Assembly (NCBI GenBank): GCA_024403995.1
Contig: JAKSQT010000005.1
Location: forward strand, 1-62,541
Direction of reading: 5' to 3'
Source: Ruminococcus sp.
GTDB lineage: Bacteria > Bacillota > Clostridia > Oscillospirales > Ruminococcaceae
Length of the DNA: 62,541 bases
The position numbers and the translations under genes were made by a program. This document shows positions 2,940 to 48,487 of the stretch, piece after piece. Below the pieces are notes generated by a model that saw only the letters and a list, made by a program, of their open reading frames with translations, was not told the origin of the DNA and did not search any database. Position 1 is the stretch's first letter, and each line of letters opens with the position of its first letter.

Positions 2940-2948
2940 TGATGTCCG

Positions 2949-3869: not shown

Positions 3870-3942
3870 TTTTTTACCTCCGTTCATATGATGAATGTTC
3901 ACAACGTCATTATATGCGGAGGTTTTGTTTGTTATTACTTCA

Positions 3943-4101
3943 GGGCATCTCTAAAAACTCCTTATGAGAAAAAGCAGCTATGCACAGCATCTGCTGCGTC
4001 AAGCCCTCTCATAGTGTGAAAGCACGCCTTCGATTGCTTTTCTTGCATCTACTGTACCTATCTGCTTTTTCTTATTCAAAACGAGTTATTAGAGATGCAC
4101 T
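3943..4101. repeat. MITE-like element, family A
   Basis: This 159-base non-coding element begins with GGGCATCTCTAAAAACTCC and ends with a decayed inverted copy (TTATTAGAGATGCAC). The interior is nearly the reverse complement of the complete copy at 60898-61055, including the block with GCAGCATCTGCTGC's relative (GCACAGCATCTGCTGCG) and the CATCTACTGTACC block. It lies upstream of the S1-domain gene on the far side of its promoter. Confidence 0.85.
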
Positions 4102-33694: not shown

Positions 33695-35284
33695 TTATTT
33701 TGTCTGAAGGCTGCTGAAAGCGTTGTCTACGATCTTCTTGTCAGGCGATGAAGTAAATGCACTTACTATCGGAACGATGAGGATTGAGATTATCATTGCA
33801 AATGCACCTGCGTTGATAGGTGAGAGCAGATTCAGCGGACAGCCGAGTGCGATAACGTCAGCTTTGAGACCATCGAATGCGCTGATGCCAAGGCTGAACA
33901 GTACCATATGTGTTACGCTGATGCCGATACCAGTAACGAAACTTGCCCAGCAAGCTGCCTTTGATGCCTTTTTCATGAACAGACCATAAAGGAATGGACC
34001 AAGGAATGCTCCTGAAAGTGCGCCCCATGAATATGACATGAGAGTTGAGATAGATGCGTTTTTGTTGCAGGCGATGATAACTGAGATTACGAGGAATACT
34101 GCAATGAAAATACGCATGAAAATCATCTGCTTCTTGTCGTTGAAATCCTTTACTCTCGGCTTGATCAGGTCGTTTGTGAGAGTTGAGCTTGATGTGAGAA
34201 CGAGTGATGAAAGTGTTGAGAGTGAAGCTGAAAGAACGAGAACAACAACTATTCCTATAAGGATATTCGGAAGTGCCTGATTGATAAGTGACGGAACCAT
34301 TGTATCATATACAGGCTTGCCGTTTGCAGTTTCGATAAGTGTTCTGCCGCTGCCGTCTGAGCCATCAAGTGTGCAGTAGAGTCTTACAAAACCGCCCATG
34401 AAGTATGAGCCGCCTGCAACAACAAATGCAAAAAGTGTTGAGATGATCGCACCTTTTTTGATAGCCTGTTCATCCTTGATGGCATAGAACTTCTGAACCA
34501 TCTGAGGAAGTCCCCATGTGCCAAGAGATGTAAGCACAACAACTCCGAAGAGGTTTATCGGGTCAGGACCGAAAAGACTGCCGAGAGTGCCTGTGTTTCC
34601 CTTGTCATCGGGGATAATGTTGAGTGCATCGATAGCTGCTGAGAGACCGTCCTTTTTCTGAACAGTGAGGGCTACTACAGTGCCGATGCCTATGAGCATG
34701 ATAATGCCCTGAACGAAGTCATTAAGTGCGGTAGCCTTGTAGCCGCCAAGTGTAACGTAAACAGCAGAAAGTACTGCCATTGCTATTATAATGTATGTAC
34801 CGCCGTTTTCACCGAGGTCAAAGACCATGCCGAAAAGACGTGAAAGACCGTTGTATACAGATGCAGTATACGGGATGAGGAAGATGAAAACAATAGCGGC
34901 TGATGCAGTTTTGAGAGCCTTTGAGTCAAAACGGAACTCGAAAAATTCAGGCATTGTTTTTGCACCAAGATGATTTGTCATGAGACGTGTGCGCTTGCCT
35001 ATGAGGAAGAACGGGATAAGACTGCCGATTATGGCGTTTCCGATGCCTACCCATGATGCTGATGCACCGTACATCCAGCCGAACTGACCTGCATAGCCGA
35101 TGAAAACAACGGCTGAGAAATAGGTCGTGCCATAGGAGAAAGCAGTGAGCCATGAGCCTACGCTTCTTCCGCCGAGCATGAAGTCTTCTGCGGATTTGGT
35201 TTTCTTTGATGTGATAACGCCTATGCTGATCATTATTGTGACATAGATGACCAGTACAACGAGCGTTGCAACTACAGAGTACAT
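33695..35284 (-). CDS. Sodium:solute symporter family transporter
   Basis: The 529-residue protein has 13 predicted membrane segments and the SSS (SLC5-like) features: an early SAEDFMLGGRSVGSWLTAFSYG block (about 35), YGTTYFSAV and the sodium-site region of segment 8, SASLSTLSSLVLTSSS (about 350). It resembles the proline (PutP) and pantothenate branches; substrate is not assigned. ATG 35284 follows GGAGCGA; the TTG at 35299 is part of the site. It has a consensus promoter and a leader of about 115 nt. Confidence 0.9.
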   Translation of the reverse strand: MYSVVATLVVLVIYVTIMISIGVITSKKTKSAEDFMLGGRSVGSWLTAFSYGTTYFSAVVFIGYAGQFGWMYGASASWVGIGNAIIGSLIPFFLIGKRTRLMTNHLGAKTMPEFFEFRFDSKALKTASAAIVFIFLIPYTASVYNGLSRLFGMVFDLGENGGTYIIIAMAVLSAVYVTLGGYKATALNDFVQGIIMLIGIGTVVALTVQKKDGLSAAIDALNIIPDDKGNTGTLGSLFGPDPINLFGVVVLTSLGTWGLPQMVQKFYAIKDEQAIKKGAIISTLFAFVVAGGSYFMGGFVRLYCTLDGSDGSGRTLIETANGKPVYDTMVPSLINQALPNILIGIVVVLVLSASLSTLSSLVLTSSSTLTNDLIKPRVKDFNDKKQMIFMRIFIAVFLVISVIIACNKNASISTLMSYSWGALSGAFLGPFLYGLFMKKASKAACWASFVTGIGISVTHMVLFSLGISAFDGLKADVIALGCPLNLLSPINAGAFAMIISILIVPIVSAFTSSPDKKIVDNAFSSLQTK

Positions 35285-35406
35285 AAAAGATCGCTCCAAT
35301 CATAAAATAATCGTAACACTTTATCTGCGGAAGGACGTTTTTGCTGAAAGTTTTTGAACGTCAAACCTGTAAAGCTTTAAAATGATAAAGTGAAATACCG
35401 TTACTT

Positions 35407-35435
35407 ATTATACAGCATAATGTGCGCCTTGTCAA
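35407..35435 (-). promoter_or_regulatory. Promoter of the symporter gene
   Basis: On the minus strand TTGACA (35435-35430), 17 bases, TATAAT (35412-35407). The leader contains a perfect 9-base inverted repeat, CACTTTATC with GATAAAGTG, spanning most of its length. Confidence 0.85.
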
Positions 35436-35623
35436 TAGTTTTTTGTCAGTTTTTCAGAATTTTTATGCATATCATGTTTACACTGCTGTTTCCCAAAGAA
35501 GCAGCATCTGCCGAGGATGAGCGGACAGCCGCAGAAAGTAAATGTCAGTAATATGCCGTCAACAGAGAGTATATAATCGTATTGTTTATACAAATAATAT
35601 AACATAATACAGCCCGAAAACAC

Positions 35624-35652
35624 TTGACAAATTATACATATTGTGTTATTAT
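35624..35652 (+). promoter_or_regulatory. Promoter of the calcium-type ATPase leader
   Basis: TTGACA (35624-35629), 17 bases, TATTAT (35647-35652). The predicted start at about 35659 leaves about 330 nt of leader before the ATPase start codon. Confidence 0.8.
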
Positions 35653-35658
35653 TTATGT

Positions 35659-35992
35659 ATTGTCATGTATGTTGTTTTCATGATGTTTTCTCTATGTATT
35701 TCCGACATGGAGAATGTTACATCTGTGTCAATGTTCATGAAAAATCTTTCAGGCACAATGATATAGTGCTGTCATATGAATTGGGGGTTGAAAAAATATG
35801 GGATTCTCGGTTCGCAAAGTTCAGGTATCATGCATAATTATACGGGTATACTGAATGAAACGGACTTCGGGATTTTTGCCGCATTGCTGAATGATACAGC
35901 TTTTTGCGGTGAGTTTTTGGGACACGCTGTGTTCCGCTTTGGGGTATTCTGCGAAAATTCGCAGAAAAATTATTTTTTAGGGAGTAAAAACA
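35659..35992 (+). promoter_or_regulatory. Long structured leader with terminator: candidate riboswitch or attenuator
   Basis: The leader is non-coding except for a possible 18-codon frame at 35798-35854 (GGGGG site, ATG, TGA). It holds several inverted repeats: GGCAC/GTGC(C) near 35753-35773, a bulged stem TTGCCGCA...TGCGGTGA with an inner GCTG/CAGC near 35876-35911, and a terminator at 35947-35978 that ends only 2 bases before the ribosome site of the ATPase. A 6-base TTCGCA at 35811-35816 can pair with the 5' side of the terminator stem (TGCGAA) as an antiterminator. This is the layout of a transcriptional riboswitch or leader-peptide attenuator. It does not show the conserved bases of the yybP-ykoY manganese, M-box or NiCo classes as far as I can see. 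Confidence 0.5.
35947..35978 (+). terminator. Attenuator-type terminator upstream of the ATPase
   Basis: TTCTGCGAA and TTCGCAGAA form a 9-base perfect inverted repeat with an AAATTATTTTTT tail, 15 bases before the ATG at 35993. A terminator in this place only makes sense if readthrough is regulated. Confidence 0.75.
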
Positions 35993-38590
35993 ATGAATCT
36001 GAAAGGTTTAACCGCAAAAGAAGTTGAAGAAAGCCGTGCGAAAAACGGCTCCAACACATTAACACAGATACCGCCTGACCCGCTTTGGAAAAAGATACTC
36101 GAAGGCTTCAAGGATCCTATGATCATGATCCTTCTCGTAGCACTTGTTGTACAGGTAGTACTGTTTTTCCTCAAACAGGCTGAATGGTTCGAGCCTGTGG
36201 GAATTCTTATCGCAATTCTCATTGCAAACGGTGTTTCATCCGTAAGTGAAAATAAACAGGAGGGCAAGGCATCTGCCCTTAAAGCTGAAGAAGAAGCAAA
36301 GGAACTTGCAAAGGTTCTCCGTGACGGTCAGCTTATAGAAATTCATGTAAGCGAAGTCGTTGTTGACGATATCGTTTATTTACAGGCAGGCGACAAGCTT
36401 CCTGCCGATGGTGAGATCGTTGAAGGCGCACTTAAACTTGATCAGGCTGCACTCAACGGCGAAACAGAAGAAGCAGACAAAATTCCTGATGAAAAATCAG
36501 AAGGCTATGATATAAAGGATCTTCTCAATAAGCACTATGCTTACCGTGGCACTGTTGTATGCGGCGGTGAAGGCTATATGAAGGTCAAGGTCGTTGGCGA
36601 CAAGACCCTCTTTGGTGAACTTGCACTTGAAGTTCAGGAGGATTCAAGAGAAACTCCGCTTCAGGTAAAGCTCGGCAAGCTTGCAAAGCAGATATCTACT
36701 TTCGGTTATATCGGTGCTATTGCAATTATCGTAGGTATTATTCTCAGAGCAGCAATTGTAGGTGAACTTCCTTCAGGCGGCGTTGAGTGGGTAAAGTTCC
36801 TCATGAACGCTATCACAGTTGCTGTTACTATCATTGTTTGTGCTGTACCGGAAGGTCTCCCGATGCTCACATCCATCCTTCTTTCTTTCCAGAGCCTTAA
36901 AATGTCCAAGGACAACGTTCTTGTAAGAAAGATCAACGGTCTTGAGACCGCAGGAAGCCTCAGTCTTCTTTTCAGTGATAAGACAGGTACTATCACCGAA
37001 GGCAGACTTTCAGTTGTTGAACTCGTAACTGGTAATGTTGTAAAATATGACAGTATCTCAAAACTCTGCCCTGAGCTTGAACTTGATGTTATCACAGGTA
37101 TCGGCGTTAACAACAGCGCAGTAGCAAGCAATGGTCAGGTAATCGGCGGCAACAGTACAGACCGTGCTCTCATGTCCTTCATCGTTGAGGAAAAAGCCGA
37201 AAACAAGATGAATAAGGACGAAGTAAGAGCATTCAACGCTTTCAACTCTACAAAGAAGATGTCAAGCGTTACTATCTGCCGTGACGGAAGCTTCTGCACA
37301 TATGTAAAGGGTGCTCCTGAAAGAATCGTAGAAAGATGTTCACATTATATAGATGAAAACGGCAATGTAAAGGAACTTACCGAAAAGGGCTACCTCATGC
37401 AGTATATTGATGAACAGGCAGGCCGTTCGATGAGACTTCTCGGTGTTGCCAAGAGAGACGGCGACAGCGATGAGGGAGATCTCACACTCGTATGCGTACT
37501 CTGTATCAGAGACAATGTCCGTAAGGAAGCCGTTGACGCTATCAAGGAAGTTCAGGAAGCCGGCATTCAGGTAGTTATGGTAACAGGTGACCGTAAGGAA
37601 ACCGCCTGCGCTATTGCAAAGGAGGCAGGACTTCTCAGAACAAACGAGGACGTTGCTCTTACATCAGGTGAAATGGCTGAAAAGTCAGACGAAGAACTCA
37701 AGGCTATCATTCCTCACCTCCGTGTTGTTGCACGTGCCCTTCCTACAGATAAGAGCCGTCTTGTAAGATGTGCTCAGGAACTTGACTATGTTGTTGGTAT
37801 GACAGGCGACGGTGTTAACGACTCACCTGCACTTAAAAAGGCTGATGTCGGATTTGCAATGGGCAGCGGTACCGAAGTTGCCAAGGAAGCCGGAGACATC
37901 ACTATCCTCGATGACAATTTCTCATCAATCGCAAAGGCTATCCTCTATGGACGTACAATGTTCAAGGGTATCAGAAAGTTCCTTATCTTCCAGCTTACTG
38001 TTAACGTTGCAGCAGTTCTTACCTGTTTCATCGGCTCACTTCTTGGTGAGGCAAAGATGATGACAGTTATTCAGCTTCTTCTTGTAAACCTTGCTATGGA
38101 TACACTTGCCGCTATCGCATTCGGCAGTGAACCTGCACTTAAGGAATACATGAAAGAAAAGCCTATTCCACGTCAGGCAAGCATCATCAGTCTGCCAATG
38201 CTCATTGAAGTTATCATAAGCGGACTTTATATCACAGCAGTTTGTCTCTGTATCCGTTTTGTTCCTGCAATTGCTGATCTCTTTGGAAACAGCGACAGAG
38301 TATATCTCTGCTCAGCACTTTTTGCAACATTCATGATGGCAATTTCATTCAACGGCTTCAATGCACGTACTGAAAGAATGAATGTATTTGAGCATCTCGG
38401 AAGAAACAAGAGTTTCCTTGCTGTAATCGGTGCACTTCTTGCTATCCAGTTCATTTTCGTAATGGTTGGCGGAGACTTCCTCAGCGTTACACCTCTTAAT
38501 GCAAAGACATGGATCATCTGTATCATTCTTGCATTCCTCGTAGTGCCGATCGACATCATCAGAAAAGCACTTACAAAGAAAGAAAAGTAA
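35993..38590 (+). CDS. Calcium-transporting-type P2 ATPase
   Basis: The 865-residue pump has the P2A/P2B layout: N-terminal cytoplasmic helices, membrane segments at about 50-95, the actuator domain with ALNGETEEADK, segment 4 with the ion-site VPEGLP (about 287), DKTGT phosphorylation site (about 329), KGAPER (about 442), TGDRKETA, GDGVNDSPALKKADVGFAM (about 605) and four to six C-terminal membrane segments. VPEGLP is typical of calcium pumps. In the actuator the usual TGES is replaced by NGET, as in many PMCA-type bacterial pumps. GGGAG precedes the ATG. Placement just ahead of calcium-binding TerD genes fits calcium homeostasis in the stress module. Confidence 0.93.
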   Translation: MNLKGLTAKEVEESRAKNGSNTLTQIPPDPLWKKILEGFKDPMIMILLVALVVQVVLFFLKQAEWFEPVGILIAILIANGVSSVSENKQEGKASALKAEEEAKELAKVLRDGQLIEIHVSEVVVDDIVYLQAGDKLPADGEIVEGALKLDQAALNGETEEADKIPDEKSEGYDIKDLLNKHYAYRGTVVCGGEGYMKVKVVGDKTLFGELALEVQEDSRETPLQVKLGKLAKQISTFGYIGAIAIIVGIILRAAIVGELPSGGVEWVKFLMNAITVAVTIIVCAVPEGLPMLTSILLSFQSLKMSKDNVLVRKINGLETAGSLSLLFSDKTGTITEGRLSVVELVTGNVVKYDSISKLCPELELDVITGIGVNNSAVASNGQVIGGNSTDRALMSFIVEEKAENKMNKDEVRAFNAFNSTKKMSSVTICRDGSFCTYVKGAPERIVERCSHYIDENGNVKELTEKGYLMQYIDEQAGRSMRLLGVAKRDGDSDEGDLTLVCVLCIRDNVRKEAVDAIKEVQEAGIQVVMVTGDRKETACAIAKEAGLLRTNEDVALTSGEMAEKSDEELKAIIPHLRVVARALPTDKSRLVRCAQELDYVVGMTGDGVNDSPALKKADVGFAMGSGTEVAKEAGDITILDDNFSSIAKAILYGRTMFKGIRKFLIFQLTVNVAAVLTCFIGSLLGEAKMMTVIQLLLVNLAMDTLAAIAFGSEPALKEYMKEKPIPRQASIISLPMLIEVIISGLYITAVCLCIRFVPAIADLFGNSDRVYLCSALFATFMMAISFNGFNARTERMNVFEHLGRNKSFLAVIGALLAIQFIFVMVGGDFLSVTPLNAKTWIICIILAFLVVPIDIIRKALTKKEK

Positions 38591-38599
38591 TTAATAGAA

Positions 38600-38626
38600 G
38601 CACCGCACTCTTTTGTGCGGTGTTTC
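38600..38626 (+). terminator. Weak hairpin after the ATPase gene
   Basis: CACCGCAC pairs with GTGCGGTG, followed only by TTTC. The poor T-run suggests that part of the transcription continues into the TerD genes. No convincing separate promoter for terD was found. The stem resembles the family B repeat end. Confidence 0.5.
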
Positions 38627-38686
38627 ACAAAAAATAAAGGTATTGCCAAAACAGCATAATACCACATAAAAAGGAGTTGTTTGAAT

Positions 38687-39295
38687 ATGAGTATCAATCT
38701 TCAGAAGGGTCAGAAAATCGACCTCACTAAACACGGCGCACCAGGCGGCGGTCTCAGAAACGTTCTTGTAGGTCTCGGCTGGGATGAGGCTCAGAAATCA
38801 GGATTTTTCAGCCGTCCGAAGCCGATAGACTGCGATGCATCAGTAATTCTCTGCGGCGCAGGCGGACACGTCCTCAACCCTTCAGATGTAAAGCAGTCAG
38901 TCATTTATTTCGGTAATCTCCGTCATCCAAGCGGCGCTATCATGCATATGGGCGATAACCTCACAGGTGCAGGTCAGGGCGATGATGAACAGATCAAGGT
39001 TGACCTTGCTGCTGTTCCGATGAATATTGAAAAAATGGTATTCGTTGTAAATATCTATGACGGCAGGGCAAGAGGTCAGCATTTCGGTATGATAAGAAAT
39101 GCATATATTCACCTTATCGACCTTTCAAACTCAAGCGAGATATGCCGCTTCAATCTTTCGGAAAATTACGATAATATGACAGGTCTTATCGTTGGTGAAA
39201 TATACAGATACAACGGCGAATGGAAATTCAATGCGATCGGTCAGCCGGTTCAGGAGGCAAGCCGTCTCCAGAATATTATTGATATATACAGATAA
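38687..39295 (+). CDS. TerD family calcium-binding protein 1
   Basis: The 202-residue TerD-fold protein (beta sandwich) starts SINLQKGQKIDLTK and carries the two acidic calcium-binding stretches of the family, here IDCDASVIL (about 43) and AGQGDDEQIKVDL (about 97), followed by VFVVNIYDG. In this copy LDLDAS is changed to IDCDAS and there is an insertion GAPGGGLRNV before GLGWD, so calcium binding may differ from its neighbour. AAGGAG lies 10 bases before the ATG. TerD proteins are linked with tellurite, phage and membrane stress tolerance. Confidence 0.94.
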   Translation: MSINLQKGQKIDLTKHGAPGGGLRNVLVGLGWDEAQKSGFFSRPKPIDCDASVILCGAGGHVLNPSDVKQSVIYFGNLRHPSGAIMHMGDNLTGAGQGDDEQIKVDLAAVPMNIEKMVFVVNIYDGRARGQHFGMIRNAYIHLIDLSNSSEICRFNLSENYDNMTGLIVGEIYRYNGEWKFNAIGQPVQEASRLQNIIDIYR

Positions 39296-39312
39296 CAGGG
39301 AGGAATTAAGTT

Positions 39313-39897
39313 ATGGCTATTAATCTTCAGAAGGGTCAGAGAGTTTCCCTTGATAATACTCTCACACACGCACTTGTAGGTCTCGGTTGGGATACAAACC
39401 ACTATGACGGCGGCTTTGACTTTGACCTTGATGCTTCTGTTTTCCTTCTTGGCGAAAACGGCAAGCTTCTCAGAGATGAGGACTTCGTTTTCTACAATAA
39501 CCTCAACGGTCGTGACGGTGCTGTAGTTCATACAGGTGATAACCTCACAGGTGAGGGCGACGGTGATGATGAAGTTATTATGATCGACTTCACAAAGATA
39601 CCGCCTGAGATCAAGAAGCTTGCTATCTGCGTTACTATTTATGATGCACAGACACGCCGTCAGAATTTCGGTCAGGTCTCAAATGCTTATATCCGTATCG
39701 CAAAGCTTGCTGATGAGTTTGATACAGTTGGGGAAACTGTTCTCAAATTTGACCTTGAAGAAGAATTTTCTATCGAAACAGCTCTCGTAGTAGCTGAAAT
39801 TTATAACAAGAACGGTGAATGGAAGTTCAATGCTGTTGCTGCCGGATATCAGGGCGGTCTTGAAGCAATCTGCCGTTCATTCGGTGCAAATGTCTGA
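39313..39897 (+). CDS. TerD family calcium-binding protein 2
   Basis: The 194-residue protein is a canonical TerD/TerZ/TerE relative: INLQKGQRVSLDN, VGLGWDTN, FDLDASVFLLG (about 35), VHTGDNLTGEGDGDDE (about 75) and ICVTIYDA. The acidic calcium sites are intact, unlike the partly altered first copy. It follows after 17 bases, with a GGGAGGAATT ribosome site. A 119-base gap with a weak hairpin separates it from the kinase gene. Confidence 0.96.
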   Translation: MAINLQKGQRVSLDNTLTHALVGLGWDTNHYDGGFDFDLDASVFLLGENGKLLRDEDFVFYNNLNGRDGAVVHTGDNLTGEGDGDDEVIMIDFTKIPPEIKKLAICVTIYDAQTRRQNFGQVSNAYIRIAKLADEFDTVGETVLKFDLEEEFSIETALVVAEIYNKNGEWKFNAVAAGYQGGLEAICRSFGANV

Positions 39898-40016
39898 TAA
39901 TAATAAAGACTGACAAAGTCACCTCTGAAAACCTTATCGTGCAGATTCGGTACAGATTTGCCGAAGATTACGGTGAACGGAATTCGGGGGTGGCTTTTTG
40001 ATTAAGAGGTGGGAAG

Positions 40017-41312
40017 ATGGTTGTATTTCAGAAAGGACAGCGCATAAAGTCTGCATCAGGCGGCGAGATCGAGATACTCGATTTTCTCGGCGCAGGCGGA
40101 CAGGGTGCTGTTTATAAAGTAAAATACGGCGGCGAGGAGCTTGCACTCAAATGGTTTCACTCAAACAAATTGTATGAGAATGAGCGCTTTTGCCGCAATA
40201 TTGAGAATAATATAAGACAGGGCGCACCGGCAGACTGCTTTCTGTGGCCGGTTGAACTGACAGAATTTATCAGCGGTTCTTTCGGCTATCTTATGAAGCT
40301 GAGACCGCCGCAGTACAGGGAGTTTTCACATTTTCTGCTTGCTAAGGTGCATTTTGCAGATATTTCGGCTCTTATCAATGCCGCACTGGGCATTATCAAT
40401 GGTTTCAGAGCGCTCCATAACCGTGGATACAGCTATCAGGATCTTAACGACGGAAACTTTTTCGTTGATCCGAAAACAGGCGATGTGCTGATATGCGACA
40501 ATGATAACGTTACGCCATATGGTGAAAACCTCGGTATTATGGGAAAATGCCGATATATGGCTCCTGAAGTCGTAACAGGCGGAAAGAGGCCTGACTGCCA
40601 TACCGACCGTTTCTCACTTGCTGTTATTCTGTATATGATACTGTTCCTCAATCATCCGCTTGAAGGCAAAAAGACAATGTGTCCGTGCCTTACAGAGGAG
40701 CTTGAATACAGATTTTACGGTGAATCTCCCGTATTCGTATGGGATGATTATGATGACTCAAACCGTCCTGTCAGGGGGGTACACGTCAATGAGATTAGAC
40801 TCTGGAAGATATATCCTGAATTTGTGAGAAAGGCTTTCGGAAGGGCTTTCAGTCATGAGGCTCTTGTCGGCGGAGATATCGAACACAGAGTCATTGAAAA
40901 GGAATGGCAGGAGATCTTCATGCAGCTCCGTGACATGACAATGAAGTGTTCTTGCGGAAGCGATACATTCTTTGATGTGAATGAACAGTCATGCGAATGC
41001 ATAAACTGTGGAAAAACAATTTTCAGACCAATGGTGCTGAAGGTGAAAAAGCGTAATATCGTGCTTGCATCAGGTTCAAAACTGTATACAGACTGTATTG
41101 AGCCTGAATGCGATGATTTCAGAAAGATAAGCGGTGAAGTGGTCGGAAGTATCACTGACCCGACAGTCCTTGGACTGAAAAATCTGACTGATACCGAGTG
41201 GGAGGCAGAGCTTCCGAATGGTTCAGCACGAAAATTCACAAAAGGTCAGGTCGTAAAACTTGGCAGAGGAGTAAAAATAAAATTCGGCGATGTCAGTGCC
41301 GAGATAAATTAA
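40017..41312 (+). CDS. Ter-associated protein kinase with C-terminal zinc ribbon
   Basis: The 431-residue protein has a kinase domain at about residues 15-270: Gly-rich loop LGAGGQGAVYKV, ATP lysine in LALKW (about 43), catalytic loop YSYQDLNDGNFFV in place of HRDLKPEN (about 140) and metal-binding DND in CDNDNV in place of DFG (about 161), then YMAPEV (about 182). Catalytic Asp, Asn and the metal Asp are kept, so it is probably active. After it come a zinc ribbon (CSCG...CECINCG, about 308-335) and a beta-rich tail (about 345-431) resembling an FHA-like fold. Kinases of this type are partners of TerY vWA proteins and PP2C phosphatases, both of which follow. Confidence 0.9.
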   Translation: MVVFQKGQRIKSASGGEIEILDFLGAGGQGAVYKVKYGGEELALKWFHSNKLYENERFCRNIENNIRQGAPADCFLWPVELTEFISGSFGYLMKLRPPQYREFSHFLLAKVHFADISALINAALGIINGFRALHNRGYSYQDLNDGNFFVDPKTGDVLICDNDNVTPYGENLGIMGKCRYMAPEVVTGGKRPDCHTDRFSLAVILYMILFLNHPLEGKKTMCPCLTEELEYRFYGESPVFVWDDYDDSNRPVRGVHVNEIRLWKIYPEFVRKAFGRAFSHEALVGGDIEHRVIEKEWQEIFMQLRDMTMKCSCGSDTFFDVNEQSCECINCGKTIFRPMVLKVKKRNIVLASGSKLYTDCIEPECDDFRKISGEVVGSITDPTVLGLKNLTDTEWEAELPNGSARKFTKGQVVKLGRGVKIKFGDVSAEIN

Positions 41313-41321
41313 GGTGATATT

Positions 41322-42101
41322 ATGGGAATTTATGATGATGTTGTTGAAGTAACACGAAGAACTATGGTGCTCTTTTTCGTGGTAGATACCTCGGGAAGTA
41401 TGAACGGAGCAAAGATAGGTACGGTAAACTCGGCTATCGAGGAGATTGTGCCTGAACTTAAAGATATATCCGAGGAGAATGCAGATGCAATGATAAAAGT
41501 TGCTACGCTTACATTCTCGTCAGGTGCAAAATGGATAAACGAGCCTATTTCAGCCGAGACTTTCCGCTGGAATTATCTCAATGCACAGGGAGTTACAGAT
41601 CTTGGAAAAGCTTTCGATGAGCTGAACGACAAGCTGTCAAGAAATGCTTATATGGGCGATATTTCAGGTTCTTTTGCACCTGTTATCTTCCTTATGTCTG
41701 ACGGCGAGCCGACTGATAATTATATGGACAGTCTTGAAGTGCTCAGAGAGAACAACTGGTTCAAAAAGGCTATCAAGGTAGCCGTTGCCATCGGAAAGGA
41801 TGCAAATAAGCGTGTTCTCAGTGAATTTACCGGAAATCCGGAGGCTGTTATCACTGTTCATTCACCGGAAGCGCTCAAAAAGTGGATACAGTTCGTCAGC
41901 GTTACTGCTTCACAGATAGGCAGCCGCAGTGCTAATGCAACAGGCGGACAGTCCGCACCTGTCACAGGCGAACAGACTGAAAAGCCAAAGAGCAAGATAA
42001 ACCTCACAAAACAGGAGGAATTCATAAGAGAGATCAAGGCTCAGGAAGCAGCCGAGGCTGAGGACTGGGACGACTTTGACGACGGCGGCATCCAGTGGTA
42101 A
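41322..42101 (+). CDS. TerY-like von Willebrand A domain protein
   Basis: The 259-residue protein has a vWA domain with an intact MIDAS metal site: DTSGSMNGAK (about 23), the Thr of GVTDLGKAF (about 92) and SDGEPTDNY (about 126). The C-terminus is an acidic, low-complexity tail ending DWDDFDDGGIQW. vWA proteins of the TerY group act as metal-dependent scaffolds in Ter systems, together with kinase and PP2C partners. It starts 9 bases after the kinase gene and is followed after 15 bases by the phosphatase. Confidence 0.93.
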   Translation: MGIYDDVVEVTRRTMVLFFVVDTSGSMNGAKIGTVNSAIEEIVPELKDISEENADAMIKVATLTFSSGAKWINEPISAETFRWNYLNAQGVTDLGKAFDELNDKLSRNAYMGDISGSFAPVIFLMSDGEPTDNYMDSLEVLRENNWFKKAIKVAVAIGKDANKRVLSEFTGNPEAVITVHSPEALKKWIQFVSVTASQIGSRSANATGGQSAPVTGEQTEKPKSKINLTKQEEFIREIKAQEAAEAEDWDDFDDGGIQW

Positions 42102-42116
42102 GCGGAGGCAATTGCT

Positions 42117-42983
42117 ATGAATTACAAGGCATTTGCAATTTCCGCACAGGGTGAAAGCCATATAAGACGTGGAAAGGAATGTCAGGATGCTTCTTTCAGT
42201 GTATGCAATGACGATGTTTCAATAATCGTTGTCTGTGACGGTCACGGCGGCGATGACTATGTGAGAAGTGCGTTCGGTTCGGTTTTTGCCTGTGAAACGG
42301 CAGTGGAGAATATCCGTTTCTTCCTTGAAAATGCTGACAAGGAAAAACTGAAAAATAACACCGATACTGTACTTGCAAATCTTGAGGCAAGCATCATCAG
42401 CGGCTGGAATGAGCGGCTTTCAGAGCATTATGCTGCAAATCCGTTTACTGATGATGAACTTGCACTGCTTTCTGACAGAGCTTTAAATCGTTATCTTAAT
42501 CAGAACCGCATTGAATCGGCATATGGAACTACTCTGCTTGCTGCGGCAGTCACAAAGGATTTCTGGTTTGCAATTCAGATAGGCGACGGCAAATGTGTCG
42601 CCGCCGATGCTGACGGAAATTTTGAGCAGCCTGTTCCATGGGACGATAAATGCTTTCTGAATACTACGACTTCTATGTGCGACAGCGAGGCTATCATAAA
42701 TTTCAGACATTATTACTCTGAAAAGCTTCCTGCGGCGGTTTTTTTATGTTCGGACGGCATTGATGACAGTTTCAGCGGAGATGAAAAGCTGAACGGTTTC
42801 TATAAAACTGTTCTTCAGTCTTTTTCCACGTCGGATATTGACGATGCTGTAAGCGAACTGAGGGAATATCTGCCCAGACTTTCTGCAAAGGGCAGCGGTG
42901 ATGATGTATCGGTCGCCGTTCTGTTTGACATGGTCGGAATTGCTGGTATAAGCGGAAATAATAACGGGAGCGTGACGAAATGA
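42117..42983 (+). CDS. PP2C family protein phosphatase
   Basis: The 288-residue PP2C enzyme should reverse the phosphorylation made by the kinase at 40017. Metal-binding aspartates are in VVCDGHGGDDYV (about 41), IQIGDGKC (about 155), CSDGIDDSF (about 209) and GSGDDVSVAV (about 261). The N-terminal AISAQGESHIRRGKECQD is typical of the Ter-associated PP2C group. Its stop overlaps the next start codon (ATGA). Confidence 0.93.
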   Translation: MNYKAFAISAQGESHIRRGKECQDASFSVCNDDVSIIVVCDGHGGDDYVRSAFGSVFACETAVENIRFFLENADKEKLKNNTDTVLANLEASIISGWNERLSEHYAANPFTDDELALLSDRALNRYLNQNRIESAYGTTLLAAAVTKDFWFAIQIGDGKCVAADADGNFEQPVPWDDKCFLNTTTSMCDSEAIINFRHYYSEKLPAAVFLCSDGIDDSFSGDEKLNGFYKTVLQSFSTSDIDDAVSELREYLPRLSAKGSGDDVSVAVLFDMVGIAGISGNNNGSVTK

Positions 42984-44524
42984 GCAATGACAGTAATGAG
43001 TTTCAGGATATACTGAGATCTGTTATTGATGAAAACGGTGCTGAACTGCTGAAAGATCCTTATAAAATGAATGCGTTTCTTCTTGACTTTGCGTATGAAT
43101 ACGGAAAATACCGTAAGCTTATCACAATTGTTCTTCAGGAGGACGTAGGCGATATTATTTTTCAGGCAAGAAACAAGGAAAGCGAAACAAAAGAACAGTC
43201 ACTTAAAAAATGTCTCCAGAGACTTAGATCTGAAACGTGGCTGACCGAAAGCGCTATGATACTTGCGGTGAATATGCTTGCAAAAGCAGTTGACCTTGGA
43301 TGCGAGCTTCCGGAATATAATGAGCCTGAACCTCAGAAAGCGGCTGCGCCTGTAACTCAGCCTGCACCGTCTGTATTGTCGTTGGTGCGTTCAACGCCGA
43401 AAAGCAGTGTGTCAGTAAAGGTGGCTGCAAATGCAGAAAAGGACATTATCAAAGGCGATATATCTGATGTGTGCGGTGACGTTACTCCTTATCTTACAGG
43501 TGTGACCTCTATCGGATATAAAGCGTTTATCGGCAATTTCATGCTTAAAAGAGTAATTATCCCTGAATGCGTTAAAACTATTATGGGAAAGGCGTTCAGT
43601 TGGTGCGTAAATCTTGAAGAAGTGCGCATCCCAAGCGGAATCGAAAAGATAGGTGAACGTGCCTTTGAAAGGTGCTATAATCTCAGGCAGATATCAATTG
43701 AAAATTCGCCAAAATATGCTGTCACCAACGGTATGCTCGTTGACAAGGAAAAAAAGCGTGTAATGAGGGCGATGAATGCAGACGGCAATATTAATATGAC
43801 AATACCTCACGGTATAAAATCGGTCGCTCCGTATGCATTTGAATGCAGCCCTGCAAATACCGTGTTTATTCCGTCAACGCTTGAAAGGATAAACAGCAAT
43901 GCATTCTATGACTGCTACTGTTTGAATGCATTTGACGTAGATTCGGGAAATTTCTGGTTTGCATCATATGACGGCGTACTCTATACAAACGAGGGAATGC
44001 AGCTTGTGCTCTATCCGCAGGGAAGGACTGCACCGGACTATTATATCAATTACGGTACTGTCGAGGTATGCGACAGGGCGTTCATGGGAGCAATGAACCT
44101 TGAAAAAGTAATTTTTTCAAGCTCTGCAAGAAAAATCGGCAGCCGTGCATTCCAGTTCTGTGAAAAACTGAAATCAGTAACACTTCCTGTAAGCATAACT
44201 TCCATTGGTGAAATGGCATTTCAGGGATGCAAGTCATTATCTATAATAACAATTCCTGTAAGCATCAAGGAGATAAGCGATTTTGTATTCAGTGAATGCC
44301 ATCGTTTAGAATCGATTACAGTTCCGCCAATGGTGGACAGAATAGGTCACGGCGCATTTCTGAACTGCCATCGTCTTGAAAGAATAGTGCTTCAGGAAGG
44401 TGTGTGCGTTATCGGAAATAACGCTTTCAAGGGATGTTCGGACAACCTTGTAATATATGCCAGAAATAACAGATTTGTGGAGCAGTACTGCAAAGCACAT
44501 TACATAAAATGTGTTGCTTTGTGA
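42980..44524 (+). CDS. Cytoplasmic BspA-type leucine-rich-repeat protein in the Ter module
   Basis: The 514-residue protein has no signal peptide. Residues 1-115 form a helical domain (ELLKDPYKMNAFLLDFAYEY..., SLKKCLQRLRSETWLTESAM) of a kind found as an accessory domain with kinase/Ter-type regulators. A Pro/Ala/Ser linker (about 115-150) follows, and then about ten BspA-type (LRR_5) repeats with the pattern I-G-x-x-A-F-x-x-C-x-x-L-x-x-V-x-I-P. BspA proteins are usually secreted, so a cytosolic form translationally coupled to a PP2C gene is unusual. I infer a protein-protein scaffold of the signalling complex. The end has a FVEQYCKAHYIK tail typical of BspA ends. Confidence 0.88.
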   Translation: MSNDSNEFQDILRSVIDENGAELLKDPYKMNAFLLDFAYEYGKYRKLITIVLQEDVGDIIFQARNKESETKEQSLKKCLQRLRSETWLTESAMILAVNMLAKAVDLGCELPEYNEPEPQKAAAPVTQPAPSVLSLVRSTPKSSVSVKVAANAEKDIIKGDISDVCGDVTPYLTGVTSIGYKAFIGNFMLKRVIIPECVKTIMGKAFSWCVNLEEVRIPSGIEKIGERAFERCYNLRQISIENSPKYAVTNGMLVDKEKKRVMRAMNADGNINMTIPHGIKSVAPYAFECSPANTVFIPSTLERINSNAFYDCYCLNAFDVDSGNFWFASYDGVLYTNEGMQLVLYPQGRTAPDYYINYGTVEVCDRAFMGAMNLEKVIFSSSARKIGSRAFQFCEKLKSVTLPVSITSIGEMAFQGCKSLSIITIPVSIKEISDFVFSECHRLESITVPPMVDRIGHGAFLNCHRLERIVLQEGVCVIGNNAFKGCSDNLVIYARNNRFVEQYCKAHYIKCVAL

Positions 44525-44582
44525 TAGTGAGGTATAGCCATAATTTTGTGTATTTATGCATGAAATTTTCATGGAGGAATAA

Positions 44583-45551
44583 ATGGATAATAATGTAATT
44601 GTTGATGAGCTGCCCTATCGTGTGGGCGGACTGCTCTATACGCCTGCGCTGAATGAGAGCATCGTCAGAAAGCTTGTTGCAGGCAGTATAAAAAATCTGA
44701 CATCTCTTGTTTTTTGTCTTGAAGATTCGATAATGGATGAAAGTCTTGAAGCGGCAGAGATCCGCCTTAAACAAAATCTGAATGAGCTTATGGAAAGCGG
44801 TGCTGAGCTGCCTCTGCTTTTTGTGCGTATAAGAACTCCTGAGCATATGGCTAAGGTGCATGAGCTTTTAGGTGATGCAGAGAAGCTGCTGACAGGCTAT
44901 GTTCTGCCGAAATTTGACCTTTCAAATGCTGACGGCTACATATCCCTTATAAAAAAATACAACAGGAAATCACTTGAAAAGCTCTATATCATGCCTATTC
45001 TTGAAAGCGGTTCGGTTGCAGAAATGAGCGGAAGAATAGAGACTCTCGGCTTGATAAAGCAGAAACTTGATGCGGTAAGGGAATATGTTCTGAATGTGCG
45101 TGTGGGCGGAAATGATTTCAGCAATATTTTCGGACTCCGCCGCAGCAAAAAGCAGAATATCTATCAGGTCGGTGTCATCAGGGATATACTTACGGCTGTT
45201 GTGAATGTTTTTGCCCGTGACTACGTTGTTTCGGCGGCTGTCTGGGAGTATTTCGGAAAGGATGCTGACGGCGAATGGGCAGAGGGACTGAGAAATGAGC
45301 TTGAACTTGACAGAATCAACGGCTTTATCGGAAAAACTGCGATCCATCCGTCACAGCTCCCCGTTATCTATGACAGCATGAAGGTCGAACGCTGTGACTA
45401 TGAAGATGCCTGTGCCATTCTGAACTGGAAACACGACGGGCTTGCCGTATCAAAGGGCGGAAGCGGCGACAGAATGAACGAAAAGAAATGCCATACAAGA
45501 TGGGCGGAAAAAATATTCATACTTGCAAAAGTGTATGGAATAAAGGACTGA
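44583..45551 (+). CDS. CitE-like (HpcH/HpaI) lyase of the Ter biosynthetic module
   Basis: The 322-residue TIM-barrel protein belongs to the HpcH/HpaI aldolase and citrate lyase beta family. Features are GGLLYTPALNESIV near the N-terminus, LVFCLEDSIMDE (about 41) with the acidic metal site, LLFVRIRTPEHM (about 77), VLPKF (about 107), ILESG and VGGNDFSNIFGL (about 178), and GKTAIHPSQLPVI (about 254). Comparative genomics of Ter systems puts a CitE-like enzyme with a phosphoribosyltransferase/Pelota protein and a HAD phosphatase in a predicted nucleoside-like metabolite pathway. The reaction is not known. Confidence 0.9.
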   Translation: MDNNVIVDELPYRVGGLLYTPALNESIVRKLVAGSIKNLTSLVFCLEDSIMDESLEAAEIRLKQNLNELMESGAELPLLFVRIRTPEHMAKVHELLGDAEKLLTGYVLPKFDLSNADGYISLIKKYNRKSLEKLYIMPILESGSVAEMSGRIETLGLIKQKLDAVREYVLNVRVGGNDFSNIFGLRRSKKQNIYQVGVIRDILTAVVNVFARDYVVSAAVWEYFGKDADGEWAEGLRNELELDRINGFIGKTAIHPSQLPVIYDSMKVERCDYEDACAILNWKHDGLAVSKGGSGDRMNEKKCHTRWAEKIFILAKVYGIKD

Positions 45552-45566
45552 GGGGAAAACTAATTA

Positions 45567-47729
45567 ATGAGCAAATACACTGAAAATGAACTTCTTCGCC
45601 TTGCAAAGCGTGTCAATAATACAAAGAGGACGTATCTCCTTGTTGACCCGATGCAGGGCAAGCATATGCCTGTTTCACCGTCTGCCGCACTTGAAATGAT
45701 GTATGCACTCGGCAGAAAGGCTACGGAAAAATACCCCGAAACAAGGCTTGTTATCGGTTTTGCAGAAACTGCTACGGCTGTCGGAGCGGCTGTTGCCGAA
45801 AGTATTTCGGGTGACTGTGCATATATCCATACCACAAGAGAAAATATCGCAGATGTGGCTGAATGGGCTGAATTTCTGGAGGAACACAGCCATGCAGCCG
45901 AGCAGAGACTTGCGGCTGACAGGCTGAGAGATTATATCAGCGGTACGGATACGGTGATTTTTGTTGATGACGAGCTTTCAACAGGAAAGACACTTATCAA
46001 CATTATCAACAGTATGAGGGAGATATTCCCGGAGCTTGAAACTAAAAAAATCGTGGCGGCTTCAATTATCAACCGTGTTTCCGATGAAAATACAGGACTT
46101 ATGCGTCAGAATGGCATTGAGTGCCTGAGTCTGCTGAAAATTGAGAATACTGACTATACCAAGGCTGTTGAGAATTTCTCCGTTACCGAAGCACAGCCGT
46201 TTGCTGTTTCTGAGAATATTCCTGATATTACGGCAAATATCAGAGTTCCCGATGCACGTCTCGGTGTAGTATGCGATGAATATATGAATGAGCTTGCGGC
46301 AGTCTGCAACAAGTTTGTGAATGAATATAAAGGGCGTATCAGCGGCAGAGTTCTTGTTCTCGGAACTGAGGAATTTATGTATCCTGCGCTTTATCTCGGC
46401 AGGTGCATTGAAAATTCAGGCATTGCCGATGAAGTGAAATGCCATGCGCCGACAAGAAGTCCGATAGGTATTTCTGACGGTGCTGATTATCCGATAAAAT
46501 CAGGAAATAAGATACACAGCTTTTATGATGCCGACAGAGTGACTTATATCTATAATATGGAAAAATATGACACAGCCGTTATCTTTACCGATGCTGCACC
46601 TGCAAACCGTCAGGCTGTCAGTGATATAGTCGGTATTATCAGGGAAAAAGGCTGCAAAAAAGTAATTCTTATTGAGGGAGAATCAATGTTCAGCACCTAT
46701 AAAAAGGAAGATGTGACGATACTGCTAAAAGATGTCACGGGACTTGTAACTCCGCTTGGAACAAAAGAACGTGAGGCACGTATACAGAGCGGAATACACT
46801 ATTCCATGATGCTGCCGCTTGAATATAAGCCTACGGAGACATACATGAACACATTCAGGGAGGCTGTCAGACTGTATGCACAGATTACGGCTGACGCTGT
46901 GGCAGGCGTTTCGGAAAAGATCGTCAGCGACAAGAAAGCTCCTGTTCTGGTATCTCTTGCCCGTGCAGGTACGTCTGTAGGCGTGCTCATAAAGCATTAC
47001 ATAAAGTATAAATACGGTATAGATGTTCCGCACTATACGATATCTATTATCCGTGGACGTGGAATCGACAAAAATGCCATGCAGTATATTCTTGACCGCC
47101 ATTCGCCTGAATCAATACAGTTCGTTGACGGCTGGACGGGAAAAGGCGCTATACAGCGTGAACTTGATAAGGCTATGGAGGACTATGAGGGCGTATCATC
47201 AGGTCTTGCAGTACTGTCTGATCCTGCGTATCTTGCGGAAAAAAGCGGTACATACGATGATTTCCTGATCGCAAGCTCGTGTCTCAACTCAACAGTTTCG
47301 GGACTTCTGAGCCGTACATACCTCAATTCCGATGCCATAGGCGAGAACGATTTCCACGGCGCACTTTTTTATAAGGAGCTTATGGACGAGGATCTTACCT
47401 ATTATTTCATAGATGCTGTAGAAAAATGCTTTGAGAAAGCTGCTCCGATAAACGACAGCGGCACAGGTGTAAGCGGTATGGACGAGGTAAGGGAGATATG
47501 CGAAAAATACGGAATTGAGGATATAAACCTTGTAAAACCGAGCATCGGTGAGGCTACAAGAGTACTGCTGAGGCGTGTTCCGTGGAAAATACTGGTTCAC
47601 AGTCTTGATGACCATGAGCACCTTGGACATCTCTATCAGCTTGCCGAGGAAAAGGGCATACAGCTTGAAGTCTATCCGCTGAAAAATTATCGTGCCTGTG
47701 GTCTGATAAAGAAACTTGCAGATAACTGA
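45567..47729 (+). CDS. Fused phosphoribosyltransferase-TRSP and StiP/Pelota protein
   Basis: The 720-residue protein joins two families that are usually separate. The N-terminal half has a phosphoribosyltransferase domain with the PRPP motif VIFVDDELSTGKT (about 128-140) and a TRSP-type domain (about 215-345). The second half (about 360-720) matches the StiP family: SGIHYSMMLPLEY (about 411), a second phosphoribosyltransferase fold with LVSLARAGTSVG (about 465) and the PRPP-like FVDGWTGKGAI (about 515), and a C-terminal Pelota RNA-binding domain (about 655-718) with KPSIGEATRVLLRR. In Ter operons these proteins are thought to make or attach a nucleotide-derived product. Fusion strongly implies that they act on the same substrate. 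Start ATG at 45567, 15 bases after the previous gene. Confidence 0.9.
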   Translation: MSKYTENELLRLAKRVNNTKRTYLLVDPMQGKHMPVSPSAALEMMYALGRKATEKYPETRLVIGFAETATAVGAAVAESISGDCAYIHTTRENIADVAEWAEFLEEHSHAAEQRLAADRLRDYISGTDTVIFVDDELSTGKTLINIINSMREIFPELETKKIVAASIINRVSDENTGLMRQNGIECLSLLKIENTDYTKAVENFSVTEAQPFAVSENIPDITANIRVPDARLGVVCDEYMNELAAVCNKFVNEYKGRISGRVLVLGTEEFMYPALYLGRCIENSGIADEVKCHAPTRSPIGISDGADYPIKSGNKIHSFYDADRVTYIYNMEKYDTAVIFTDAAPANRQAVSDIVGIIREKGCKKVILIEGESMFSTYKKEDVTILLKDVTGLVTPLGTKEREARIQSGIHYSMMLPLEYKPTETYMNTFREAVRLYAQITADAVAGVSEKIVSDKKAPVLVSLARAGTSVGVLIKHYIKYKYGIDVPHYTISIIRGRGIDKNAMQYILDRHSPESIQFVDGWTGKGAIQRELDKAMEDYEGVSSGLAVLSDPAYLAEKSGTYDDFLIASSCLNSTVSGLLSRTYLNSDAIGENDFHGALFYKELMDEDLTYYFIDAVEKCFEKAAPINDSGTGVSGMDEVREICEKYGIEDINLVKPSIGEATRVLLRRVPWKILVHSLDDHEHLGHLYQLAEEKGIQLEVYPLKNYRACGLIKKLADN

Positions 47730-47740
47730 GGAGGGCGGCT

Positions 47741-48487
47741 TTGACAACATTTTTTGCTGACCTCGACAATACGCTTATCTACTCGCACAGGCGTGAGATA
47801 GGCAATGACAAACTCCCTGTTGAATGGCTTCATGACAGGGAGCAGAGCTATATGACACGGAAAAGTCATGATTTTTTTATGAATGTCCGACAGCTTTCCG
47901 TTGTGCCGCTGACTTCACGGACAATGGAGCAGTACGGCAGACTTGCAGGCATTGCGGACAGTTTCGGCTGGGAGTATGCACTGATATGCAACGGTGGTAT
48001 CCTCCTGAAAAACGGTGAGATATGCCGTGAATGGCTTGATGAGACCTACCGCATGACAAGCGATTCAGCAGCGGAATTTGAACGTGCCTGTAAACTGATA
48101 AGTGCGGAAAATGATGCTGTTCACCTGACAGAAAAGATCATGGTCTATGCATCCTTTGACGAGCCGCAGCGTGTTGAAAGCATACTCAAAGAAAATCTTG
48201 ACAGCAAGCTTGTAAGCGTGTTTTCAGATCACCGCAAAGTCTACTGTGTGCCGAAAAAAATCAATAAGGGCATTGCGGTGCAGCGTTTCCGTGAGATGGG
48301 ACTTGCGGACGGCATTACAATTGCGGCAGGGGACGGCGAACAGGACGTGCCTATGCTTGAAAATGTCGATATACCGATAGTTCCTGATGCCCTGTATGAA
48401 AAGATAACAAATTCAGGAAAAAGACTTGCGGATAATTCACAGGTATTTTCGGACGGTATATCTGATATACTGAAAGAAATTTCATAA
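47741..48487 (+). CDS. HAD family phosphatase of the Ter module
   Basis: The 248-residue hydrolase has the HAD nucleophile motif FADLDNTLIYSHR (about residue 4), motif II TSRT (about 58), the lysine of KINKGIAV (about 172) and motif IV GDGEQDVPML (about 195), with a Cof-type cap. The start codon is TTG, supported by a strong GAGGAGGGCGG site 11 bases after the fusion gene. HAD enzymes are regular partners of the CitE-like and TRSP proteins and probably remove a phosphate from their product. It ends the Ter run. Confidence 0.88.
   Translation: MTTFFADLDNTLIYSHRREIGNDKLPVEWLHDREQSYMTRKSHDFFMNVRQLSVVPLTSRTMEQYGRLAGIADSFGWEYALICNGGILLKNGEICREWLDETYRMTSDSAAEFERACKLISAENDAVHLTEKIMVYASFDEPQRVESILKENLDSKLVSVFSDHRKVYCVPKKINKGIAVQRFREMGLADGITIAAGDGEQDVPMLENVDIPIVPDALYEKITNSGKRLADNSQVFSDGISDILKEIS

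Follow-up and report, generated by a model that had tools for sequence, protein, structure and literature searches.

A modular Ter-type gene cluster with a predicted calcium pump-TerD core in Ruminococcus sp.

The window, i.e. the whole stretch of 62,541 nucleotides that we analysed, contains ten forward-strand open reading frames between positions 35993 and 48487, separated by -4 to 119 bp. These genes, and a promoter-like site ahead of them, are as follows:

35624..35652, + strand, promoter-like site TTGACA-17-TATTAT with an extended -10, preceding the pump gene (consensus scan, a consensus match only)
35993..38590, + strand, PMCA-type calcium-translocating P-type ATPase, 865 aa (TIGR01517)
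38687..39295, + strand, TerD1 (PF02342, E 1.1e-66)
39313..39897, + strand, TerD2 (PF02342, E 7e-75)
40017..41312, + strand, Ser/Thr kinase (KIN) whose C-terminal part has a zinc ribbon and another conserved stretch (PF00069, E 2.8e-15)
41322..42101, + strand, TerY-like vWA protein with an acidic tail ending in Trp (PF00092)
42117..42983, + strand, PP2C phosphatase (PF13672, PP2C_2, E 7e-38)
42980..44524, + strand, LRR_5 protein with an N-terminal domain (PF13306, E 2.7e-60)
44583..45551, + strand, CitE-like C-C bond lyase (C-C_Bond_Lyase) of the Ter biosynthetic module (PF15617, E 2.7e-100)
45567..47729, + strand, PRTase_2-TRSP in frame with StiP-PELOTA_1, StiP starting at about 46686 (PF15609, PF12500, PF11202, PF15608)
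47741..48487, + strand, HAD (Cof-type) phosphatase, Hydrolase_3, with a TTG start (PF08282, E 2.1e-10)

All ten genes named in an initial annotation are present as open reading frames, and the Pfam and NCBIfam matches agree with its family names and with its assignment to the Ter systems (two TerD genes, the Ter biosynthetic families and a TerY-P triad). Below, Module A denotes the kinase-vWA-PP2C-LRR genes (the TerY-P triad plus the LRR gene) and Module B the lyase-PRTase-StiP-HAD genes. The GC content of the cluster (0.445) is close to that of its flanks (0.435 and 0.444), so that a recent foreign island is unsupported; the flanks resemble ordinary chromosomal genes when their translations are judged by eye. 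Compared with the closest relative (G119), pN was lower than pS in all 10 validly compared gene rows (the StiP row was excluded), with pN/pS of 0.13-0.53 and several genes near synonymous saturation, and the genes of the cluster are under purifying selection.

The pump scores 633.8 bits against TIGR01517 (cut-off 507), and this PMCA Ca2+ model far outscores every heavy-metal model. When the protein is aligned to plant ACA8, the DKTGT, PEGLP, N and NLxMD stretches line up, the latter two being presumably the Ca2+-site motifs, and it also aligns over nearly its full length with a bacterial Ca2+ P-type ATPase, lmo0841 of Listeria (PDB 6zhf, 9euq), which we take to be LMCA1. We classify it as a PMCA-type calcium ATPase, for which Ca2+ transport is predicted. 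The gene is preceded by a 340-nt leader that includes a hairpin (35947-35966); an Rfam search of 35250-36150 gave no match near the gathering score (best E 1.9), so that a riboswitch was rejected, the same search on nine relatives' loci returned tRNAs only, and in a by-eye comparison the leader was not common to relatives. Several relatives have similar promoter-like sites just 5' of the pump, again judged by eye. Another hairpin lies 3' of the pump gene (38601-38622), and together with the 119-bp gap before the kinase gene it could split transcription.

Both TerD proteins are stand-alone TerD domains (PF02342), as expected of Ter systems, and TerD2 aligns over its full length with the TerD structure entries 2kxt and 2kxv (the latter, we assume, the Ca2+-bound form), with the acidic motifs retained. 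The initial annotation had placed the calcium ATPase within the Ter block, and both co-occurrence and adjacency with TerD back this. Among 125 genomes of the genus, many of the compared genomes being drafts, the pump was present in 39, TerD in 42 and both in 37 (Fisher 7.6e-24, uncorrected for relatedness), and for 37 of 40 pump genes a TerD gene lay at most 11 kb away on the same contig. Across 391 Clostridia the corresponding counts were 25, 16 and 9 (p 3.3e-8, or 2.9e-7 when the window's own genome is excluded), and in all nine genomes with both, pump and TerD were adjacent or within about 4.4 kb of each other. At the order level, outside the genus, the pump was found in eight of 12 lyase clusters linked to TerD or PRTase. 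In a phylogeny of the 25 pumps from the class sample, 2 changes account for the label 'TerD-linked', compared with a mean of 7.5 for shuffled labels (none of 500 shuffles was as low), and a single clade of TerD-linked pumps is not rejected (AU p 0.19). In 11 loci (L177-L187) among 20 stretches the core stands by itself, flanked neither by TelA or ATP-grasp nor by any other Ter gene of the window. Nevertheless, 16 of the 25 pump genomes in the class sample have no strong TerD and such a pump is lacking from seven of the 16 TerD genomes, and thus the pump is neither constant nor Ter-specific; the Module B clusters of two genomes (G091 and G092) likewise contain TerD and no such pump. Judged from these gene contents, the PMCA-type Ca2+ ATPase and the TerD proteins appear to form the core of the cluster and its steadiest portion among relatives. 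A literature search returned several papers in which TerD and P-type ATPase both occur as words, and in passages of PMC12363816, PMC11090510, PMC7159879 and PMC7824862 we found no link between TerD and a calcium pump.

In Module A, K45, D142, D161 and D163 of the kinase, to which we ascribe the catalytic roles, are invariant across 9 aligned kinases, as are three of the four ribbon cysteines, the first being replaced by His in G119. The ribbon, a CxC...CxxC pattern C-terminal to the kinase domain as in TerY-P kinases, matched no family model above cut-off; the tail of the kinase and the N-terminal part of the LRR protein likewise had no Pfam match above cut-off, and among the best 60 of 1022 hits a PDB profile search listed the kinase domain alone. 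The vWA protein retains the MIDAS pattern DTSGS..T..D in the alignment (Pfam calls VWA only), and it and the PP2C phosphatase are of the kinds expected in a TerY-P triad. The LRR protein had been regarded as special to this cluster, a view we could not uphold: an LRR partner adjoins kinase-vWA-PP2C genes in all three non-Ter cassettes examined, the N-terminal domain of the window's LRR protein is common to the LRR proteins of such cassettes in alignments, and a cassette of this kind lies in the window's own genome (contig C92). Compared with G119, none of the ten validly compared proteins is less conserved than the LRR protein (41%), the repeats being 44% and the N-terminus 32% conserved, which leaves the idea of the repeats as a fast-varying recognition surface unsupported.

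Module B contains all families expected of a Ter biosynthetic module (PF15617, PF15609, PF12500, PF11202, PF15608 and PF08282). PRTase and StiP form one reading frame in the window and two in 30 of 30 relatives showing both, so that the fusion, previously read as an architecture, does not stand as one; by eye, the junction differs by one base from that of a relative (L063). In our reading, ATP-grasp of the Ter pathway and TerC are common in Ter systems and not obligatory. The reported lack of ATP-grasp is true of the cluster and not of the genome, where ATPgrasp_Ter lies on another contig (C176; in L055 it is inside the cluster), while that of TerC agrees with our finding no match at E<=0.001 in the draft genome, which is 86% complete.

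The window thus combines core, A and B, and conservation of gene order, which had been proposed as a check on the claim of one functional block, gave a divided answer. The order is kept in G119, spread over two contigs (SSS-pump-TerD-TerD-kinase-vWA-PP2C-LRR and lyase-PRTase-StiP-HAD-SpoIIE), whereas in other genomes the modules occur apart: five genomes that lack PRTase_2 have Module A behind the core, and Module B accompanies the core without Module A in others. Since A and B are each found without the other, the cluster is assembled from interchangeable modules. On sequence grounds we regard it as a modular variant of a composite Ter-dependent stress system of known kind, whose parts are found in different combinations in relatives.

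We consider it reasonably probable that these genes form a composite Ter-dependent stress-response operon in which the calcium pump and the two TerD proteins are the core and Modules A and B optional regulators, and it probably serves in a stress or anti-phage response that is linked to Ca2+ and regulated by phosphorylation. What we observed is the gene content, linkage, conserved motifs and purifying selection. In the mechanism that we propose, the trigger would be a rise in cytosolic Ca2+ through damage to the membrane, the entry of a phage or some other insult to the envelope. Both TerD proteins would then bind Ca2+ and form assemblies close to the membrane, and the pump would bring Ca2+ back down. 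The kinase and PP2C phosphatase may set the phosphorylation state, and hence the threshold of the response, the vWA and LRR proteins serving them as scaffolds. The lyase, PRTase, StiP and HAD proteins may make or turn over a nucleoside-like metabolite that would serve as a second signal, of which TerD is the probable reader. A and B would in this way act as optional regulators docked on the pump-TerD core.

A dedicated anti-phage role, with Ca2+ efflux and TerD assembly following phage entry, is a tentative possibility that overlaps with this proposal, phage being one such stress. It is suggested by an IMG/VR contig (L249) in which a pump-TerD x4 unit directly follows a gene of type III restriction type and one for a DNA methylase, by a triad of kinase, vWA and PP2C with TerY-C that a Prevotella plasmid carries in the vicinity of genes for ADP-ribosylglycohydrolase and exonuclease, and by TerY-P-like modules being reported, in passages of PMC11090510, as stand-alone defence. 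In contrast, the flanks of the window look ordinary by eye, and PADLOC matches were weak and partial, comprising kinase models, PRTase_III-A and, for the LRR protein, SduA (E 5e-4), so that we rejected a known anti-phage system. Two or three unrelated cassettes (pump-TerD, kinase-vWA-PP2C-LRR and the Ter metabolite module) may also simply lie side by side with no joint function, as could be argued from the occurrence of the parts alone or partly combined (core alone, core+A, core+B) and from the non-Ter LRR-kinase-vWA-PP2C cassette (L129) in the same genome. This we think unlikely, because Module A occupies the same place after TerD2 in six genomes besides the window's (G119, G141, G082, G003, G109 and G085), the gap between TerD2 and kinase is only about 15 bp in L114, and a different vWA-PP2C-kinase triad (kinase and vWA 25-30% identical) recurs beside pump, TerD and Module B: all share one contig in L056, L064 and L071, no vWA is visible in L058, and in G016 the set is split between two contigs (L061, L193). 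That the cluster is simply an operon for resistance to tellurite or heavy metals with a cation pump, as the naming of the TerD and StiP families after tellurite resistance might suggest, is very improbable given a pump of the PMCA Ca2+ type and no TerC found in the draft genome.

To our knowledge, the function of TerD proteins is still unsettled, and the pump-TerD link across Clostridia would make calcium handling part of TerD's job. Pump, terD1 and terD2, free of other modules, offer a directly testable three-gene unit, and the natural core-only, core+A and core+B genomes a series for finding the contribution of each module. More speculatively, Clostridia might possess a calcium-signalling stress system in which particular Ca2+ pump lineages work with TerD proteins as Ca2+-gated assemblies, this pair being the real core of many Ter systems and the phospho-switches and nucleotide-like second messenger exchangeable, docked regulators.

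Ter-dependent stress response systems were reportedly described by Anantharaman, Iyer and Aravind in 2012. As far as these can be known from citing passages (PMC7824862, PMC11090510, PMC7159879) and general background, the window shares with them TerD, the lyase, PRTase_2/TRSP, StiP, PELOTA, HAD and the TerY-P triad. The triad, defined in passages of PMC11090510 as vWA, PP2C and a kinase with a C-terminal zinc ribbon, is matched by the window's three proteins, which differ from it in a vWA without a TerY_C domain (a stand-alone TerY_C gene occurs in L114), the additional LRR protein and the further C-terminal stretch of the kinase. Jug gut phages, whose predicted hosts are Bacteroides/Phocaeicola, encode, like the window, a Ca2+ P-type ATPase as well as TerD, although the passages of PMC12363816 do not report the neighbourhood of the two. 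Judged on the same basis, the window departs from the Ter-dependent systems in the absence of TerC from its draft genome and of TelA, YceG and ATP-grasp from its ten genes, and in carrying a PMCA pump within the core and an LRR protein with the triad.

The window, contig C125, belongs to a draft genome of 2.58 Mb with a completeness of 86%. Ten open reading frames occupy 35993-48487 of the window on the + strand, spaced by -4 to 119 bp. In order, Pfam and NCBIfam assign them to a PMCA-type Ca2+ ATPase (the "pump"), TerD1 and TerD2, together the core; a kinase, vWA, PP2C and an LRR_5 protein (module A); and a C-C bond lyase, a PRTase_2-TRSP-StiP-PELOTA protein and a HAD phosphatase (module B). 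The GC content of the cluster is no different from that of its flanks, and pN is below pS in 10 of 11 gene rows, the eleventh (StiP) not being valid. A 340-nt leader (35653-35992) precedes the pump gene and carries, some 27 bases 5' of the start, a hairpin resembling a terminator; comparison by eye found no counterpart of the leader in relatives. Directly 3' of the pump gene is an 8-bp GC-rich hairpin (38601-38622) followed by few T on the + strand, possibly a partial terminator. A second P-type ATPase reading frame, at 22750-24243, shows only distant likeness to the pump.

The proposal of the initial annotation that a calcium ATPase forms part of the Ter system is borne out by its association with TerD. 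Among 125 genomes of the genus, the pump (E <= 1e-150) was found in 39, TerD (E <= 1e-50) in 42 and both in 37 (Fisher 7.6e-24, a value that is too small since the genomes are related). Out of 40 pump genes, 37 have a TerD on the same contig less than 11 kb away, start to start, and 33 less than 3.4 kb away. As for the exceptions, longer TerD-like genes adjoin the pump in G136 (L068), and the pumps of G125 (L192) and G016 (C211, L193) are on short contigs, the first next to lyase/ATP-grasp and the second next to a kinase. In an evenly drawn sample of 391 Clostridia genomes, the pump was found in 25 (a count that may be low because two best candidates were scored per genome), TerD in 16 and both in nine, always within about 4.4 kb; 16 genomes had a pump without a strong TerD and seven a TerD without a pump. 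At the order level the lyase family was matched in 37 of 394 genomes, and 16 clusters above 300 bits, the window's own genome included, were taken further. Leaving out that genome and L163-L165, which are not Ter-like, eight of 12 clusters contain the pump (L166, L167, L169, L171, L172, L173, L175 and L076); three run into contig ends (L168, L174, L176), and L170 has TerD with the pump absent.

For the 25 class-level pumps (nine TerD-linked, 16 unlinked), the tree requires two changes to account for the link, where shuffles gave 7.5; the AU test does not reject a single origin (p 0.19), but only 12% of bootstrap trees show one. A wider tree (n = 64), its rows selected partly via TerD, likewise gave two changes. 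The core also occurs alone: 11 loci (L177-L187, among 20 stretches) have neither the window's other Ter genes nor TelA or ATP-grasp adjoining it, and in five of these a gene of 267-273 aa, which is AIM24 in L177, lies between the TerDs.

Conservation of gene order, the test suggested earlier, was examined in relatives: pump-TerD1-TerD2-kinase-vWA-PP2C is kept in all six genomes with the nearest kinases (56-71% identity; G119, G141, G082, G003, G109, G085). L055 and L057 read pump-TerD1-TerD2-lyase-PRTase-StiP-(332-aa gene)-HAD, so that the kinase set is absent between TerD2 and the lyase. LRR follows PP2C in four of the six, i.e. where the contig continues, and G035 is consistent with the same order, divided between contigs (L119, L188). 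PRTase_2 had no match in five of the six, all except G119. Kinase homologues of any type occur in 100 of the 125 genomes, and 20 stretches were inspected (L113-L132; 19 via the kinase search, one via an ATPgrasp_Ter search of the own genome). Three of these (L129, from the own genome, L130 and L132) carry a cassette of the order LRR-kinase-vWA-PP2C that is not of Ter type; in L123 vWA and PP2C adjoin the kinase on the opposite strand, and in L120-L122 and L124-L128 neither adjoins it.

PRTase_2 exceeded the cut-off in 22 of the 125 genomes. Apart from the window and G125 (L079, L192), 20 neighbourhoods were compared for gene order (L055-L074), and 16 include the pump; of the other four, L063 and L069 are truncated at contig ends and L060 and L067 have no pump. 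The window-type kinase was beside PRTase_2 in none of the 20, and lies on another contig in two of these genomes, G119 (L063) and G035 (L069). In G119, the closest relative, both modules are present on separate contigs: the last genes of C107 (L113) are LRR and a transglutaminase-like one, and C35 (L063) starts with lyase-PRTase-StiP-HAD-SpoIIE. A comparison of the two ends found no overlap. Since arms of a single inverted repeat lie at both ends, a repeat element appears to have interrupted the assembly there, and the data suggest a small mobile element between the transglutaminase and lyase genes.

The fusion of PRTase and StiP had been taken as an architecture, a reading that did not survive comparison, as they are separate ORFs in all 30 relatives that show both (in five, about 1 kb apart with the lyase between). 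By eye, a single-base difference from L063 brings the window's overlapping PRTase and StiP into one frame; the joining may be a true recent event or a draft-genome error. ATP-grasp is indeed absent from the cluster, whereas the same genome carries ATPgrasp_Ter on contig C176, 65% identical to the 332-aa gene of L055, which Pfam assigns to the same family. TerC, also said to be lacking, was not found in the draft genome. Elsewhere in that genome are a TerD-vWA (TerF-like) protein on C175 (L078) and, on C114 (L077), an ORF of 489 aa that adjoins an AIM24 gene and has TerD at its C-terminus.

The window's kinase, vWA and PP2C constitute a TerY-P triad as defined in PMC11090510. Nine aligned kinases all share K45, D142, D161, D163 and three ribbon Cys, the first ribbon Cys being His in G119, and the vWA alignment preserves the MIDAS pattern. 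All 12 aligned vWA proteins of the window type, Ter-linked or not, end in Trp, in most after an acidic tail, possibly a docking peptide; three vWA of another triad type lack this Trp.

42057-42098, + strand: C-terminal tail of vWA, aligned with L113-L119, L123, L129, L130 and L132

That second triad type, with 25-30% identity in kinase and vWA, is found together with pump, TerD and module B in L056, L058 (no vWA within the stretch), L064 and L071, and is spread over two contigs in G016 (L061, L193); Pfam confirms PP2C in L058, L064 and L071, and the kinase in L064. The LRR counterparts in L129, L130 and L132 have a similar N-terminal domain plus an extra zinc-ribbon-like start. Downstream of the cassette at L129:6633-12282 (G000:C92) is a protein containing long Gln/Pro-rich repeats, likewise in L130, where it has a weak cytidine-deaminase match. 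In L114, a locus with module A but not B, LRR is followed at 2569-4037 by a stand-alone TerY_C gene and another, transglutaminase-like one (a family tested by Pfam on the L113 copy). On Prevotella plasmid pE2-28 (L253, NZ_CP091789.1), kinase-vWA-PP2C occur in the same order (43, 57 and 40% identical), preceded by a gene whose annotation is TerY-C metal binding; ADP-ribosylglycohydrolase and exonuclease genes are close by.

Linkage, domain content, conserved motifs and pN < pS are directly supported; the mode of action is proposed. PMCA-type ATPases export Ca2+, and a TerD structure has reportedly been solved with Ca2+; TerD2 matches structure entries 2kxt/2kxv. Ca2+ entry might be the trigger, with TerD as sensor or assembler, kinase and PP2C setting a threshold, the pump acting as reset and a metabolite as second signal. 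As set out in PMC7159879 and PMC7824862, the proposed role of TerD is to read nucleotide derivatives, one of which would be made by the PRTase/HAD set. An anti-phage use is plausible, if unproved, because a DNA methylase gene and one of type III restriction type lie directly 5' of pump-TerD x4 on L249 (IMGVR_UViG_3300019373_000210, filed as viral). On a human faecal virome contig (L252, MT840059.1, 4495 bases), TerD genes and a pump with 74% identity keep the same order; this unverified record could be bacterial DNA.

In a partial literature search, to which the 2012 comparative-genomics paper on Ter systems did not belong, no description of the pump as a Ter component was found. The gene families and the Ter framework are already known; the composite cluster and its pump-TerD core are, as far as could be checked, new.
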